Assembly: GCA_016208105.1 (NCBI GenBank) | Contig: JACQYS010000010.1 | Location: 1-64,000 of the forward strand | Direction: 5' to 3' | From: Desulfovibrio sp. | GTDB lineage: Bacteria; Desulfobacterota; Desulfovibrionia; Desulfovibrionales; Desulfovibrionaceae | Length of the DNA: 64,000 nt | In this document: positions 6,759 through 47,795 of the stretch, in pieces | How the letters are laid out: every line of letters starts with the position of its first letter | How positions within the stretch are numbered: the stretch's first letter is position 1 | Position numbers and translations under genes: made by a program | Notes under the pieces: generated by a model | Told to the model about the DNA's origin: nothing | Databases searched by the model: none | Seen by the model: only the letters and a program-made list of their open reading frames with translations

Positions 6759-6800
6759 TGGTGGAGGCGGGGGGAATCGAACCCCCGTCCGAGAACGCTG
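6759..6800. other. Probable attachment-site core (ssrA 3' end)
   Basis: The tRNA-like 3' end of ssrA (T-arm, acceptor strand and encoded CCA) forms the chromosome-element junction. Only this one att copy lies in the window. The exact core length cannot be set without the second copy. Confidence 0.6.
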
Positions 6801-7111
6801 GGGCAAAGCTTCTACAGGCATAGGCCGGAAATTAATCTCGGTTCGGACTTGCCTTCCGGCCGGGCGTCCCGAACCCAGACCATTTAGGTTCTTACGCTCG
6901 CTTCAACAGTCGAACAGCGAACGCCAGCCCAGGGGGGTGTCCTCCACATCCAGCTTACCGGGCGTGTGCTGGAGGAAGGCTGGCCTTAAGCGGCCAGAGC
7001 GTAGTCGTAATCGTTGGCGATTATCTTGTTTTCCGCATTTTTAACGAGGCCATGCGGACCCTCGGCCTGCAACCTTGACGTCGCAATCCCCGTCGAAACC
7101 AGTGCGCCCCC
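6759..7111 (-). ncRNA. ssrA: tmRNA (ssrA)
   Basis: Transfer-messenger RNA that rescues stalled ribosomes. The 353-base gene starts GGGGGCG, followed by CACTGGTTTCGACGGGGATT, and ends with the T-arm GGGTTCGATTCCC, CGCCTCC and ACCA. The seven acceptor pairs (with one G-U) match. The tag frame is at 6986-7018: after an AUAAUC context it starts with a GCC resume codon and encodes ANDYDYALAA followed by UAA. CCA is encoded. The 3' end is the integration site of the neighbouring element, so the native terminator has been displaced. Confidence 0.97.
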
Positions 7112-24948: not shown

Positions 24949-25025
24949 TGGTAGCGAGGGAGGGAATTGAACCCCCGACACTGCGGATATGAGCCGCATG
25001 CTCTAACCGACTGAGCTACCTCGCC
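24949..25025 (-). tRNA. tRNA-Met (anticodon CAT)
   Basis: A 77-base cloverleaf: acceptor GGCGAGG pairs with CCTCGCT, D-loop AGCTCAGTCGGTTAGAGC, anticodon stem TGCGG/CCGCA around loop CTCATAT, T-arm GGGGGTTCAATTCCC, and encoded CCA. The acceptor starts G-U and the anticodon stem lacks the three G-C pairs of an initiator, so it is an elongator. The CAT anticodon could also be tRNA-Ile2 after lysidine modification, but the body looks like Met. Confidence 0.95.
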
Positions 25026-34388: not shown

Positions 34389-34922
34389 ATGAAGAAAGCC
34401 TCCGGCGGCCAAAGGGCTACGCCCTTTGGGATCCCTTTTGGCTTCGCGGCCTGGATTCGCCATGTGGCTGTGCTGGCGCTGGTTTTAGCGCTGTCGGCCT
34501 GCGGCCAATCCGGGGTCGAACTGGTCCAGAACGGCACCGTGCCCGAGAATCCCACCGCCCCGGTGGGCCTGGCCATCAAGAGCTATGCGGGGTTCAAGGA
34601 AGTAACCTGGGAACAATTCACCGATGCCCAGGGAGTTACCCGCGTCCTGGCCACGGGCCAGTACCGCATGGATCTGCCAGAAATACAGGCCTGTCCCAGG
34701 GCCGGGCAGGGCGGCTTCGTGCTGGCCGCACGCGCTTTTCTGCGCATGACGTTCACGGTGGACGAGCAGGCGAAGACCTTCGCCTTCACCGGCGCGGAAT
34801 TTCTGGTCTATTCCCCCAAAGGCTGGTCCATGTCCTACCCGGCCGGGCTTTCCGCCTTCGAGGCCATCCTGCAGGGAACGTCGGGGCTTTCCTGCGGCGT
34901 TCTCTACGCGCCCGGGCCGTGA
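34389..34922 (+). CDS. Hypothetical lipoprotein with repeat-derived N-terminus
   Basis: A 177-residue protein. A lipobox LSAC (Cys at residue 38) follows a hydrophobic stretch (VAVLALVLALSAC), so outer or inner membrane attachment is expected. The first 20 residues (KKASGGQRATPFGIPFG) are read from a dispersed GC-rich repeat at 34398-34435, so the original start may be different. The mature domain (IKSYAGFKEVTWEQFTDAQG, then ATGQYRMDLPEIQACP) is not recognised. A second, inverted copy of the repeat follows the gene. Confidence 0.65.
   Translation: MKKASGGQRATPFGIPFGFAAWIRHVAVLALVLALSACGQSGVELVQNGTVPENPTAPVGLAIKSYAGFKEVTWEQFTDAQGVTRVLATGQYRMDLPEIQACPRAGQGGFVLAARAFLRMTFTVDEQAKTFAFTGAEFLVYSPKGWSMSYPAGLSAFEAILQGTSGLSCGVLYAPGP
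34398..34435 (+). repeat. Dispersed intergenic repeat, copy 1
   Basis: GCCTCCGGCGGCC is followed by the hairpin CCAAAGGGC-TAC-GCCCTTTGG and ATCCC. Near-identical to 34949-34988 in the opposite orientation, with the same opening as 46418. It lies inside the predicted start of the lipoprotein gene. Confidence 0.75.
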
Positions 34923-34948: not shown

Positions 34949-34988
34949 GGGATTCCAAAGGGCTAAGGCCCTTTGGCCGCCGGAGGCC
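34949..34988 (-). repeat. Dispersed intergenic repeat, copy 2 (inverted)
   Basis: The minus strand reads GGCCTCCGGCGGCC, then CAAAGGGCCTTAGCCCTTTG and GAATCCC, matching copy 1. It lies 27 bases after the lipoprotein stop and can form a stable hairpin that may end transcription. Confidence 0.75.
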
Positions 34989-44588: not shown

Positions 44589-44604
44589 CAACCGCCCATT
44601 CGGA

Positions 44605-44633
44605 TTGACCTTTGTCCGGCTCCTGGTTAGAAA
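44605..44633 (+). promoter_or_regulatory. Candidate sigma-70 promoter of the cbpAB operon
   Basis: TTGACC (44605-44610) and TAGAAA (44628-44633) are 17 bases apart, just upstream of the conserved part of the riboswitch. Because the aptamer 5' border is not exact, the -10 may overlap it. Confidence 0.4.
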
Positions 44634-44795
44634 AGGAACCGCGTTCGGCATAACGGAACACGGTGCGAATCCGTGGCGGACCCGCCGCTGTAACCGGGGA
44701 CGCGAGAGGGCATGGCGATACGCCGGTCACTGGGGAAAACCCCGGGAAGGCTGGCCCCCTCGCGGTTGATCCGGAAGCCAGAAGACCTGTCGAAG
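44620..44795 (+). promoter_or_regulatory. Cobalamin riboswitch
   Basis: All main conserved blocks of the B12 aptamer are present in order: CGGTGCGAATCCG, GCGGACCCGCCGCTGTAACC with GGGGACG, GGTCACTGGGG, CCCGGGAAGGC, and the B12 box GAAGCCAGAAGACCTG (44774-44789). The borders are approximate. It is directly followed by a strong intrinsic terminator and then cbpA, so binding of adenosylcobalamin should stop transcription of cbpAB. The OFF direction is the usual mode and is inferred here. Confidence 0.95.
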
Positions 44796-44821
44796 CGCGC
44801 TATAATTCGGAATCCGATGGC

Positions 44822-44861
44822 AAAGGGTTCCGGCGGAATTTTTCCGCCGGAACCCTTTTTT
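44822..44861 (+). terminator. Riboswitch expression-platform terminator
   Basis: Perfect 17-bp arms (44822-44838 and 44842-44858), TTT loop and six T. It lies between the B12 box and the cbpA ribosome-binding site, so read-through decides expression of cbpAB. The 27 bases before it could pair differently as an antiterminator. Confidence 0.92.
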
Positions 44862-44887
44862 ATTTGCACCCAAACCAAGGAGGCCAA

Positions 44888-44989
44888 ATGAAGAAGACCA
44901 AGAAAGACGTGATCGCCTTCAGGAAATCCTGCAAGGCCGACGGCACAGGCTTGTCCCACTACATCCTCATGGACCCCAAGAAGAGCTGA
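44888..44989 (+). CDS. cbpA: Modified-peptide precursor CbpA
   Basis: A 33-residue peptide, MKKTKKDVIAFRKSCKADG, then TGLSHYILMDPKKS. The ATG follows CAAGGAGGCCAA, a strong ribosome-binding site. It is positively charged, with a single Cys (15), one His and one Tyr in the C-terminal half as possible modification targets. Its stop shares a base with the start of the radical SAM gene (TGATG), which indicates coupled translation. It matches my recollection of the CbpA family of short peptides found after cobalamin riboswitches, partner of CbpB. The final product and its role are unknown. Confidence 0.8.
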   Translation: MKKTKKDVIAFRKSCKADGTGLSHYILMDPKKS

Positions 44990-46398
44990 TGACAGAGCAA
45001 ACCTCGATCAAGGCGGTCCTGAAAACGGGCCGCCTTTACAACACCGGCGAAGGACCCACCCTGCAACCAGTGGACATCGGCCACCGCGACTACATGGCCG
45101 TGGTCGATCCGGACACGGCCTTCTGGGCCCTGGTGCGCAAGAACAAACTCGGGCAGACCCTCACCGGACGCTCGTTCATGGCCGCCTATTCGGAAAAGGC
45201 CGCCGAATTCGCGCAGGAAATGGAGCGCCTTCGGTTCGGCCTCAAGCCTTCGGCGGTCTATTTCAACCCCACCGAGCGCTGCAACCTGAACTGCTCCTAC
45301 TGCTACATTCCGGCGGATATGCGCTTAAACGGCATCAACATGTCCACCGCGAAGCTCCTGGAGGCGCTCGAACGGCTCAAAGCCCACTTCCAGGCCACGT
45401 TGCCTGAAGGCACAAAACCGCAGATAATATTTCACGGTGCCGAACCCTTGATCAACAAGGACGCGGTCTTTGCCGGCATCGAACGCTTTCGCGACGACTT
45501 CCGGTTCGGCGTGCAGACCAACGCCACGCTTTTGGACGACGAGGCCATCTCGTTTCTCAAAGCCAATGGCATCGGCATCGGCATTTCCCTGGACGGCCAC
45601 ATTCCCGCCATCGCGGACAGGGCCCGCAAGGCCTGGGGCGGAAACGGCGTGTCCCGGCAGGTGACCGCGGTCATGGACAAGCTGCGCGGCTATCCCGCGT
45701 TCAACGTCATCTGCACCATGACCAGCCTGAACATGCGTTCGCTGCCAAAAATCGTGGACTTCTTCCACGAAAACGAAGTGTCCACCTGCCTCCTGAACGT
45801 GGTGCGCTGCACCCTGCCCGGAGCCCGCGAGATAAAGCCCGACGAGGACGAGGCCGCCAAGTGGTTCATCAAGGCCCTTGAGCGGTCCCACCAGCTCTAC
45901 GCCAAGACAGGGCGCAAGCTCGTGGTGGCCAACTTCGCCAACATCCTGCTGGCCGTCATGGCTCCCACGGCCAGGCGGCTCATATGCGACATTTCGCCCT
46001 GCGGCGGGGGCCGTTGCTTCTTCGCTCTGGCCCCCAACGGCGACATCTTCCCGTGCAGTGAGTTCATCGGCCTTCCGGACTACAAGGGAGGCAACCTGTT
46101 CACGGACAAGGTGGACGATATCGTTGCCAGCCCCGCGTTCAAGACGGTCACCGGGCGCAAGGTGGAGGATATCAAACACTGCCGCACCTGCGCCATCCGC
46201 CACTTCTGCGGCTCGCCGTGCCCGGCCGAAGCGGCCGAGATGAACGGCGGCATGAACCAGAAGGGCGCATTCTGCCGCTTCTACGAGGAGCAGGTTCGCT
46301 ACGCCCTGCGGCTCATCGCCGATGGCCGCGCGGACGACTTCCTGTGGGACGGCTGGGATGAGGGGGTGGAGACAACGTTCGACCTGACGAGTATGTGA
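44989..46398 (+). CDS. cbpB: Peptide-modifying radical SAM/SPASM enzyme CbpB
   Basis: A 469-residue radical SAM enzyme. Residues 1-85 may form a peptide-recognition domain. The SAM-cluster motif is C98-NLN-C102-SY-C105, followed by HGAEPL (149-154). The C-terminal SPASM-like region has cysteines at 333, 338, 343, 356, 398, 401, 407, 411 and 429, enough for two auxiliary 4Fe-4S clusters. Such enzymes install thioether or carbon-carbon links in ribosomal peptides. Its partner is cbpA, one base of overlap upstream. The pair matches the CbpB/CbpA naming. Expression should depend on cobalamin through the riboswitch. No dedicated protease or exporter follows. Confidence 0.88.
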   Translation: MTEQTSIKAVLKTGRLYNTGEGPTLQPVDIGHRDYMAVVDPDTAFWALVRKNKLGQTLTGRSFMAAYSEKAAEFAQEMERLRFGLKPSAVYFNPTERCNLNCSYCYIPADMRLNGINMSTAKLLEALERLKAHFQATLPEGTKPQIIFHGAEPLINKDAVFAGIERFRDDFRFGVQTNATLLDDEAISFLKANGIGIGISLDGHIPAIADRARKAWGGNGVSRQVTAVMDKLRGYPAFNVICTMTSLNMRSLPKIVDFFHENEVSTCLLNVVRCTLPGAREIKPDEDEAAKWFIKALERSHQLYAKTGRKLVVANFANILLAVMAPTARRLICDISPCGGGRCFFALAPNGDIFPCSEFIGLPDYKGGNLFTDKVDDIVASPAFKTVTGRKVEDIKHCRTCAIRHFCGSPCPAEAAEMNGGMNQKGAFCRFYEEQVRYALRLIADGRADDFLWDGWDEGVETTFDLTSM

Positions 46399-46417: not shown

Positions 46418-46540
46418 CCTCCGGCGGCCAGGGGGAGAGCCTCCCCCTGGACCCTGCAATAGCTTCGCGGGATTCACCAGTAACTGGTGAATCCCGCGAA
46501 GCCGTTGAGGGGGTCTGGGGGAAATCATTTCCCCCAGAGA
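46418..46540. repeat. Dispersed intergenic repeat, copy 3, with three nested hairpins
   Basis: Opens with GCCTCCGGCGGCC as in the 34.4 and 34.9 kb copies. It contains CCAGGGGGA / TCCCCCTGG, a 20-bp perfect palindrome with one central base (46462-46481, 46483-46502), and CTGGGGGAAA / TTTCCCCCAG. It lies between the convergent cbpB and lysA genes and probably terminates both. Confidence 0.8.
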
Positions 46541-46547
46541 ATCTCTC

Positions 46548-47795
46548 TTATTTGCAGTCTTTTTCCAAGGCGATCAAATCCTCAAACGTCTCCCGTCTCC
46601 TGGCCAGGGTCACCTTGTCGCCGTCAACAAGCACCTCGGCCGCCCTGGGCCGCGAGTTGTAGTTCGACGACATGGTGAACCCGTAGGCCCCTGCCGAGAA
46701 CACGGCCAGAAGCTCTCCGGGCTCGACAGCCGGGATGTCCCGGTCTTTCGCCAGAAAATCACCAGACTCGCAGATGGGGCCCACCACGTCCACGTTCAGG
46801 TTCTTGCGGCCCTTGGGGGTCACTTCCTTGATGGCGTGGAAGGAGCCGTAGAGGGAGGGGCGGACCAGGTCGTTCATGGCCGCGTCCACGATGATGAAGT
46901 CCTTGGACGGGGTCTTCTTGGTGTAGACCACCTCGGTGAGGAGAATCCCGGAGTTTCCGGCGATGACGCGCCCCGGCTCCAGGATGAGCGTCATGGGATG
47001 GTCCTTCAATACGTTCACAAGGGCCTTGCCGAACTGGGCCGGGTGGGGCGGTTCCTCGTCGTTGTAGGTGATGCCCAGGCCCCCGCCCAGGTCGAGGTAT
47101 TCGATGCGGATACCCATGGCTTTCAGGCGGTCGTAGAAGTTGATGATGCGGTCCAGGGCCTCCAGGAAGGGCTCCAGGGTGGTGAGCTGGGAGCCGATGT
47201 GGCAGTCGATGCCCACGGGCTCGATATTGGGCAGGGTCAGGGCCCGGGAGTAGGCGGCCAGGGACTGTTCGATGTCCAGGCCGAACTTGTTCTTCTTGAG
47301 CCCGGTGGAAATATAGGGGTGGGTTTTGGGGTCCACGTCCGGGTTGATGCGCAGGCTGATCCGCGCGGTCTTGCCCATGTCCGAGGCCACGGCCGAGATG
47401 CGCTCCAGCTCGCCCGTGGACTCCACGTTGAACATGAGGATGTTCGCGGCCAGGGCCTGGCGGATCTCGTCGGCGCGCTTGCCGACGCCCGAATAGACGA
47501 TCTTGGAGGCGGGCACGCCTGCGGTCAGGGCGCGGTGGAGCTCCCCGCCGGAAACGATGTCCATGCCAGCGCCGCAGTCCTTCAGAAGCTTCAAGAGGCA
47601 CAGGTTGGAGTTGGCCTTCACCGAATAGCAGGTGATGTGCGGAAGGCCGCTGAAGGCCGAATCGAAGGCCTCGAAATGGCGGCGCAGGGTGGCTGCGGAG
47701 TAAACATAGAGGGGGGTGCCGTACTGCTTTACAAGCTCAATGGCCGGGACATCCTCGGCATGGAGCTGGCCGTTCTTGTACTCGAAGAAATGCAT
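46548..47795 (-). CDS. lysA: Diaminopimelate decarboxylase
   Basis: A 415-residue PLP enzyme that makes L-lysine from meso-diaminopimelate. The PLP lysine is in CYSVKANSN. Other motifs include DIVSGGELHRAL, the phosphate-binding LDLGGGLGI, EPGRVIAGNSG, and the substrate-contacting ICESGDF. Length is normal. The gene starts 4 bases after mutS, and its ribosome-binding site GGAGACTAA is inside the mutS end, so the two are cotranscribed. It is followed by the hairpin-rich repeat. Confidence 0.97.
   Translation of the reverse strand: MHFFEYKNGQLHAEDVPAIELVKQYGTPLYVYSAATLRRHFEAFDSAFSGLPHITCYSVKANSNLCLLKLLKDCGAGMDIVSGGELHRALTAGVPASKIVYSGVGKRADEIRQALAANILMFNVESTGELERISAVASDMGKTARISLRINPDVDPKTHPYISTGLKKNKFGLDIEQSLAAYSRALTLPNIEPVGIDCHIGSQLTTLEPFLEALDRIINFYDRLKAMGIRIEYLDLGGGLGITYNDEEPPHPAQFGKALVNVLKDHPMTLILEPGRVIAGNSGILLTEVVYTKKTPSKDFIIVDAAMNDLVRPSLYGSFHAIKEVTPKGRKNLNVDVVGPICESGDFLAKDRDIPAVEPGELLAVFSAGAYGFTMSSNYNSRPRAAEVLVDGDKVTLARRRETFEDLIALEKDCK

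Follow-up and report, generated by a model that had tools for sequence, protein, structure and literature searches.

We found that the gene pair cbpA–cbpB, which encodes a short peptide and a radical SAM enzyme, is associated with bacteria that have corrin-ring genes and nearly always has a B12 riboswitch upstream, which gives the CbpA/CbpB family a sharp context. We tentatively favor the reading that CbpA is induced by B12 scarcity, modified by CbpB and kept inside the cell, where it would support cobalamin production, likeliest as a small ligand or chaperone for Co(II). The starting point was a 64,000-nucleotide stretch of a Desulfovibrio contig (the window). Its CbpA matches the NCBIfam model TIGR04164 (‘modified peptide precursor CbpA’) with 60.3 bits (cut-off 35), and its CbpB matches TIGR04163 (‘peptide-modifying radical SAM enzyme CbpB’) with 711 bits (cut-off 375). 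As both genes exceed existing cut-offs, the kind has already been named; by sequence, the window pair is a member of this NCBIfam family and no different from it. The family is apparently named yet unstudied: full-text searches, which most subscription papers lie beyond, found no literature on cbpAB and no paper mentioning TIGR04163, TIGR04164 or cobopep. New here are the link between the pair and corrin makers, the evidence from terminators and operons, CbpA types with a long loop or tandem cores, the inheritance of CbpA and CbpB as a matched pair, and a predicted docking strand.

All features of the window locus lie on the forward strand. The B12 aptamer proposed in a first-pass annotation of the letters was matched by the covariance model RF00174 over its whole length (model positions 1–189) with 80.5 bits, exceeding the gathering score of 31.5; it occupies 44,600–44,808 and thus starts at 44,600, not at 44,605. 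The 17-bp terminator hairpin of the same annotation was recovered with 17 pairs at 44,822–44,858, with a loop of three and a following T run (TTTATTT), and reads as the expression platform of the riboswitch. The region 44,780–44,880 folds with −38.5 kcal/mol (z −3.53), a value equalled by 2 of 200 shuffles. An antiterminator pairing between CCGGAAGCC in the aptamer and the 5′ arm of the terminator looked plausible by eye in the window, but it was rejected as it is not kept in relatives, for example L049. A Shine–Dalgarno-like AAGGAGG, read from the sequence (44,877–44,883), precedes cbpA (44,888–44,989 including the stop codon; ATG at 44,888, stop at 44,987–44,989), which encodes a precursor peptide of 33 residues. 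The ATG of cbpB (44,989–46,398, stop codon included; 469 residues) overlaps the cbpA stop in TGATG. CbpB matches both the Radical_SAM (PF04055) and SPASM (PF13186) families of Pfam over their cut-offs; these coordinates and the TIGR04164 and TIGR04163 matches bear out the annotated order of a 33-residue peptide and an overlapping SPASM radical SAM gene, and the names CbpA and CbpB given there were already in use in NCBIfam.

Among the ORFs of the window, no same-strand exporter or protease gene lies 3′ of cbpB, as had been noted before; the next long ORF (46,548–47,795), which we take to resemble lysA, is on the opposite strand. Between cbpB and this convergent ORF lies an inverted repeat (46,442–46,522) with 40-nt arms that are 83% complementary and 1 nt apart, followed by a second, 12-bp inverted repeat (46,514–46,538); one or both are perhaps a two-way terminator. 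The sequence CCTCCGGCGGCC-AxGGG occurs three times in the window with at most 3 mismatches (46,418–46,435, 34,399–34,416 and 34,969–34,986; 0.27 expected) and is perhaps part of a dispersed repeat. Rfam models also place a tmRNA at 6,759–7,111 and one tRNA gene at 24,952–25,025, both on the reverse strand.

CbpB over cut-off was found in 25 of 297 genomes of Desulfobacterota (the phylum name being taken from family members), in 11 of 398 genomes from the phylum to which a Rhodopseudomonas record belongs and in 3 of 246 from that of a Planctomycetota record, the centre genome included each time. Nine named relatives include records labelled Desulfovibrionaceae (73% identity), two labelled Planctomycetota, and others labelled Nitrospinales, Burkholderiaceae, Neptunomonas, Sedimenticola and Rhodopseudomonas, and a Methylovirgula plasmid (L152) carries an annotated cbpA–cbpB pair. 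Our 45 distinct loci comprise one per genome in 44 genomes (the window genome, G000, included) and this plasmid; two further genomes of the Planctomycetota phylum and a second, partial cbpB of G060 were left out. G060 has its CbpB matches on contigs C96 and C108; the second of them is over cut-off, lies on another contig than the first and covers model positions 172–428. The window genome (4.18 Mb, 31 contigs) has a single cbpAB locus, and its next match to CbpB reaches 54 bits with 26% identity. At all 45 loci, cbpA adjoins cbpB.

An RF00174 element lies upstream of cbpA at 43 of the 45 loci: the window, 23 of the 24 other loci of its phylum, all nine named relatives and ten further loci of the Rhodopseudomonas phylum (L101, a duplicate of L043, is not in this count). 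In G140, the element heads a long operon containing cbpAB instead of directly preceding cbpA, and the Methylovirgula plasmid has no RF00174 match over the gathering score. An intrinsic terminator was found within 150 nt upstream of cbpA at 32 of 44 loci, against 1.0 expected from shuffled two-base blocks (40 shuffles per locus). The stems vary in sequence between loci with the pairing kept. This leader layout is that of a transcription-terminating OFF switch, from which we infer OFF behavior: scarce cobalamin would let transcription pass the terminator, and cbpA and cbpB would then be made. At L126 and L127 (the same loci as L038 and L039), a pair of cobalamin riboswitches is arranged back to back, one before cbpAB and the other before a divergent run of CobU, CobT, CobS and CobD/CobQ genes.

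CbpA has the motif R-x-x-C-x(5–7)-GLSHY. In an alignment of 43 rows (the plasmid and 42 of 44 genome loci, without the two tandem forms), the residues invariant besides the start are R12, C15, G21, L22 and H24, while G19, S23 and Y25 are conserved in at least 90%; the first-pass annotation had proposed such conservation among relatives as a check. Scanning for the motif gave a CbpA at all but one of the 44 genome loci (43, duplicates L038 and L039 uncounted); CbpA of G140 has GLAHY in place of GLSHY, and with the plasmid CbpA, taken from its annotation, the total is 45 of 45. The spacing from Cys to GLSHY is five to seven residues. In Neptunomonas (L042) and Sedimenticola (L140), a single ORF contains two tandem VIAxRKxCxADGxGLSHYILMDK units, which the 25 positions of TIGR04164 do not cover. 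This model recovers 16 of the 25 pairs of the window’s phylum at E 1e-6, of which 10 are over its cut-off. All seven CbpAs with a five-residue loop pass the cut-off, versus 3 of 18 with a longer one (the loop type of G042 was read from its sequence); thus, most CbpAs in which six or seven residues separate Cys from GLSHY (15 of 18) fall below the curated value. No orphan cbpA was found by TIGR04164 in 297 Desulfobacterota genomes, where all 16 genomes matched at E 1e-6 also have cbpB. Orphan long-loop CbpAs could escape this search, since TIGR04164 failed to recover 9 of the 25 known pairs. Among solved proteins, CbpA gave three matches (antibody chains and an RCC1-like protein; best E 0.086), which we regard as chance.

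We placed five peptide types on a phylogeny of 43 CbpBs (IQ-TREE; the partial gene of L069 omitted). The types need 4 changes, the minimum possible, compared with a mean of 17.3 when types are shuffled, and none of 200 shuffles was as low as 4. CbpA and CbpB are thus inherited as a matched pair, although common ancestry by itself would group the types as well. These observations bear on the idea that cbpA is merely a regulatory leader ORF and that the substrate of CbpB is encoded elsewhere. As might be expected of a leader ORF, the gene is short, sits before cbpB and, in the window, runs into it. However, the five invariant residues, a cbpA–cbpB distance ranging from overlap to more than 400 nt, the tracking of CbpA types on the CbpB tree, the tandem cores and the peptide-maturase kind to which CbpB belongs make such a role most improbable.

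CbpB has 11 invariant cysteines, three in the radical SAM motif (CX3CX2C) and eight in the C-terminal part, in 39 rows (38 of the 44 loci and the plasmid; L065, L067, L069, L127, L133 and L136 were left out). Its closest solved structures are those of CteB, the SCIFF maturase (Z 33.9 for 5why and 33.8 for 5wgg), followed by anSME and ChlB. CteB has the same fold and is closest to CbpB by both structure and profile, at about 22% identity. The alignment begins at residue 1 or 2 of CteB, and CbpB therefore likely shares a CteB-like N-terminal recognition domain. Other NCBIfam models match CbpB with 113–129 bits or less, far under their cut-offs; the next after TIGR04163 is that of PapB, a ranthipeptide maturase (NF047865, 129.1 bits, cut-off 340). 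The thioether made by PapB follows a spacing rule between Cys and an acidic residue. Unlike in the setting of PapB and the SCIFF maturase, the peptide here has one conserved Cys and no conserved acidic residue at a fixed distance from it. A thioether of the PapB kind in CbpA is thus not favored.

In the structure predicted for a CbpA–CbpB read-through of L139 (34 rows; mean pLDDT 85.2, pTM 0.86), CbpA residues 11–20 have a mean of 88 and include a strand (15–19) that ends on the invariant Cys, while residues 23–68, comprising GLSHY and the linker, are below 50. A model of L061, from another branch, again has a strand ending on Cys, now with lower confidence (means of 58 for residues 1–10 and 77 for 11–20), and GLSHY unplaced. 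CbpB would accordingly grip CbpA by the [VI]IxxR-x-x-C stretch, which the two fused models predict as a β-strand and which would dock, probably on the CteB-like recognition domain. The radical SAM/SPASM site may then modify the GLSHY segment, the invariant Cys or both.

The operon of G140 begins with the riboswitch, a TonB–B12 receptor gene (below the cut-off of its model), CobD–CobQ, CobA, CobB/CbiA, CbiC, cbpA and cbpB, and continues with a CbiX-family chelatase, CbiM, a small ORF, ThiC, CbiQ, one unscanned gene and CbiD. In at least this operon, cbpAB thus adjoins a CbiX-family chelatase gene. A BLAST search showed 8 of 44 loci to have B12-synthesis genes at most about 8 kb away (L042, L047, L048, L058, L126, L127, L137 and L140; weak single matches at L050 and L059 are ignored). 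The remaining 36 have none nearby, and several of the contigs end early. Late-pathway genes are among these neighbors: CobU, CobT, CobS and CobD–CobQ at L126, and CbiB at L048 and L042. There is no fixed neighbor gene, as the largest clusters beyond CbpB reach 6 of 46 rows with duplicates included, and these clusters contain no exporter, protease or immunity gene common to cbpAB loci.

Radical SAM-modified peptides studied so far are mostly exported, and tandem cores, as at our two loci, occur in peptides that are cut into several products. CbpA might by analogy be exported to scavenge cobalt as a metallophore, or to serve as a signal or antibacterial peptide. With no common exporter, protease or immunity gene among the loci, none after cbpB in the window, and a charged CbpA N-terminus that by eye lacks a signal sequence, we consider export very unlikely.

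We then investigated the other B12 riboswitches of these genomes. The 22 cbpAB genomes of the window’s phylum that were surveyed (G000, G005 and G042 left out) have 111 RF00174 elements, of which 89 do not serve cbpAB. Sixty of these were examined, namely 59 of a random draw of 60 and G040:C5 in place of one that had no downstream DNA. The first ORFs after them include 11 CbiK matches, 11 TonB–B12 matches, 4 with a CbiX domain (possibly overlapping with CbiK), 3 FecCD, 3 periplasmic-binding proteins, 3 CbiC, 2 CobT, 2 CbiM and 1 CobN; the rest are singletons or of no listed family, partly due to crude ORF choice. By eye, ORFs behind B12 riboswitches at L161–L163, L167 and L173 start with signal-peptide-like stretches, so some of the 11 CbiK matches may be periplasmic, though the tally does not tell which. 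In the window genome, one of the three remaining elements is followed by a CbiK-family gene with a BtuCDF-like transporter and CbiL, another by an NrdG–NrdD pair and the last by CobT. The cbiK–cbiL layout with btuCDF and the nrdDG layout were both described for Desulfovibrio cobalamin regulons in the accessible part of a 2004 study, which leaves cbpAB without mention (PMC545781).

CbiC/CobH (PF02570) catalyzes a corrin-ring step of both cobalamin routes. We found it in 41 of 44 cbpAB genomes versus 40 of 80 cbpB-negative genomes (Fisher p 4e-7, kinship ignored). Within the window’s phylum the numbers are 24 of 25 versus 15 of 40 (p 1e-6, again ignoring kinship), and in the Rhodopseudomonas phylum (Pseudomonadota) they are 10 of 11 versus 25 of 40, where the excess is not significant (p 0.14, kinship ignored). 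The cbpB-negative controls come from a random draw of 80 and 100 genomes, of which the 40 with the lowest numbers were taken each time; among hand-picked cbpB-negative genomes, 11 of 32 have CbiC. The three cbpAB genomes without CbiC are G005 (79% complete), G299 and G430, which have 5, 2 and 3 TP_methylase matches, respectively, against 2–4 in three cbpB-negative genomes without CbiC. In one family (f8), only G140 of nine genomes has cbpAB, and only G140 has CbiC. In the window’s family, all nine cbpB-negative genomes carry CbiC, so cbpAB is not necessary for corrin synthesis. As the pair goes with B12-making bacteria, it probably helps them to obtain or use cobalt on B12 shortage. A single cobalt-insertion route for cbpAB is not supported: CobN is over cut-off in only 6 of the 44 cbpAB genomes, with a match below cut-off in 9 more, and the pair is thus present both with and without it.

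Two roles had been suggested in the first-pass annotation, cobalt or corrinoid supply and a substitute for a B12-dependent function. The CbiC co-occurrence, the G140 operon and the co-regulon favor the former, and cbpAB more likely serves cobamide supply than replaces a B12 enzyme. Under the latter, mature CbpA, or an enzyme using it as a cofactor, would take over on B12 shortage, as NrdDG does for NrdJ. That suggestion keeps one supporting fact from the window genome, whose B12-independent NrdG–NrdD likewise follows an RF00174 element. It has a precedent in the B12-element control of B12-independent isozymes in Desulfovibrio vulgaris and Desulfuromonas, as described in the accessible text of PMC545781, and would suit the stand-alone position of cbpAB at most loci. 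On the other hand, cbpAB lies inside the B12-synthesis operon of G140 and beside B12-synthesis genes at seven more loci, no enzyme gene travels with it, and 41 of 44 carriers have the corrin-ring gene, although B12 makers can also lack cobalt. We thus judge a substitute role unlikely.

In the supply reading that we prefer, the modified CbpA would remain intracellular and aid cobalamin production; most likely, it would act there through its invariant Cys and His as a small ligand or chaperone of Co(II). We infer the modification, the cobalt binding and the cytoplasmic location, as we do the OFF behavior. Two points favor cobalt handling: the peptide is small, keeps an invariant Cys and His and has no exporter linked to it, and chelatase and cobalt-uptake genes are frequently in company. 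In a narrower version, CbpA would be a cobalt chaperone of about 30 residues that is ribosomally made under B12 limitation, modified by a radical SAM enzyme and able to hand Co(II) to the corrin pathway; this is conceivable but rather doubtful. The accessible part of PMC7689651 reports that CbiK inserts cobalt unaided at in vivo cobalt levels, which counts against a cobalt chaperone. The cobalt chaperone CobW, described in the same source, has the role suggested here for CbpA, namely to provide Co(II) for corrin metalation under cobalt scarcity. CobW differs in being a GTPase that belongs to the late (CobNST) route (PMC7689651), whereas CbpA would be a modified 33-residue peptide, and CobN over cut-off is absent from 38 of the 44 cbpAB genomes.

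Alternatively, modified CbpA could serve a step of cobamide synthesis or salvage other than cobalt supply, for example as a cofactor or helper of a reductase, in lower-ligand attachment or in corrinoid remodeling. This shares the links to corrin genomes, to the G140 operon and to neighboring genes; the late-pathway neighbors at L126, L048 and L042 and the independence from a single insertion route speak for it. A reductase gap would fit as well, since the accessible part of the 2004 study reports that just one of the δ-proteobacteria examined had cbiJ (PMC545781). Yet no single pathway gene accompanies cbpAB, and we regard this alternative as possible without being probable. If CbpA does handle cobalt, it would represent a new route to B12 metalation and an unusual intracellular use of a RiPP.

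A few further observations concern the riboswitches and the plasmid. One genome (G214) has twelve RF00174 elements, including on contig C1 an equal-score pair at 900,982 and 903,214 and a divergent pair at 927,939 and 928,411. RF00174 elements at L193, L199, L201 and L213 (G214, G236 and G278) are followed by small ORFs of similar kind, which start near ...GVIVYL or GVIIYL. On the Methylovirgula plasmid (L152, 8,319–16,753), cbpAB, which has no RF00174 match there, lies near pqqA–pqqD–pqqE, and the same region encodes a further radical SAM protein, which is related to TIGR04463 but scores below the cut-off of that model.
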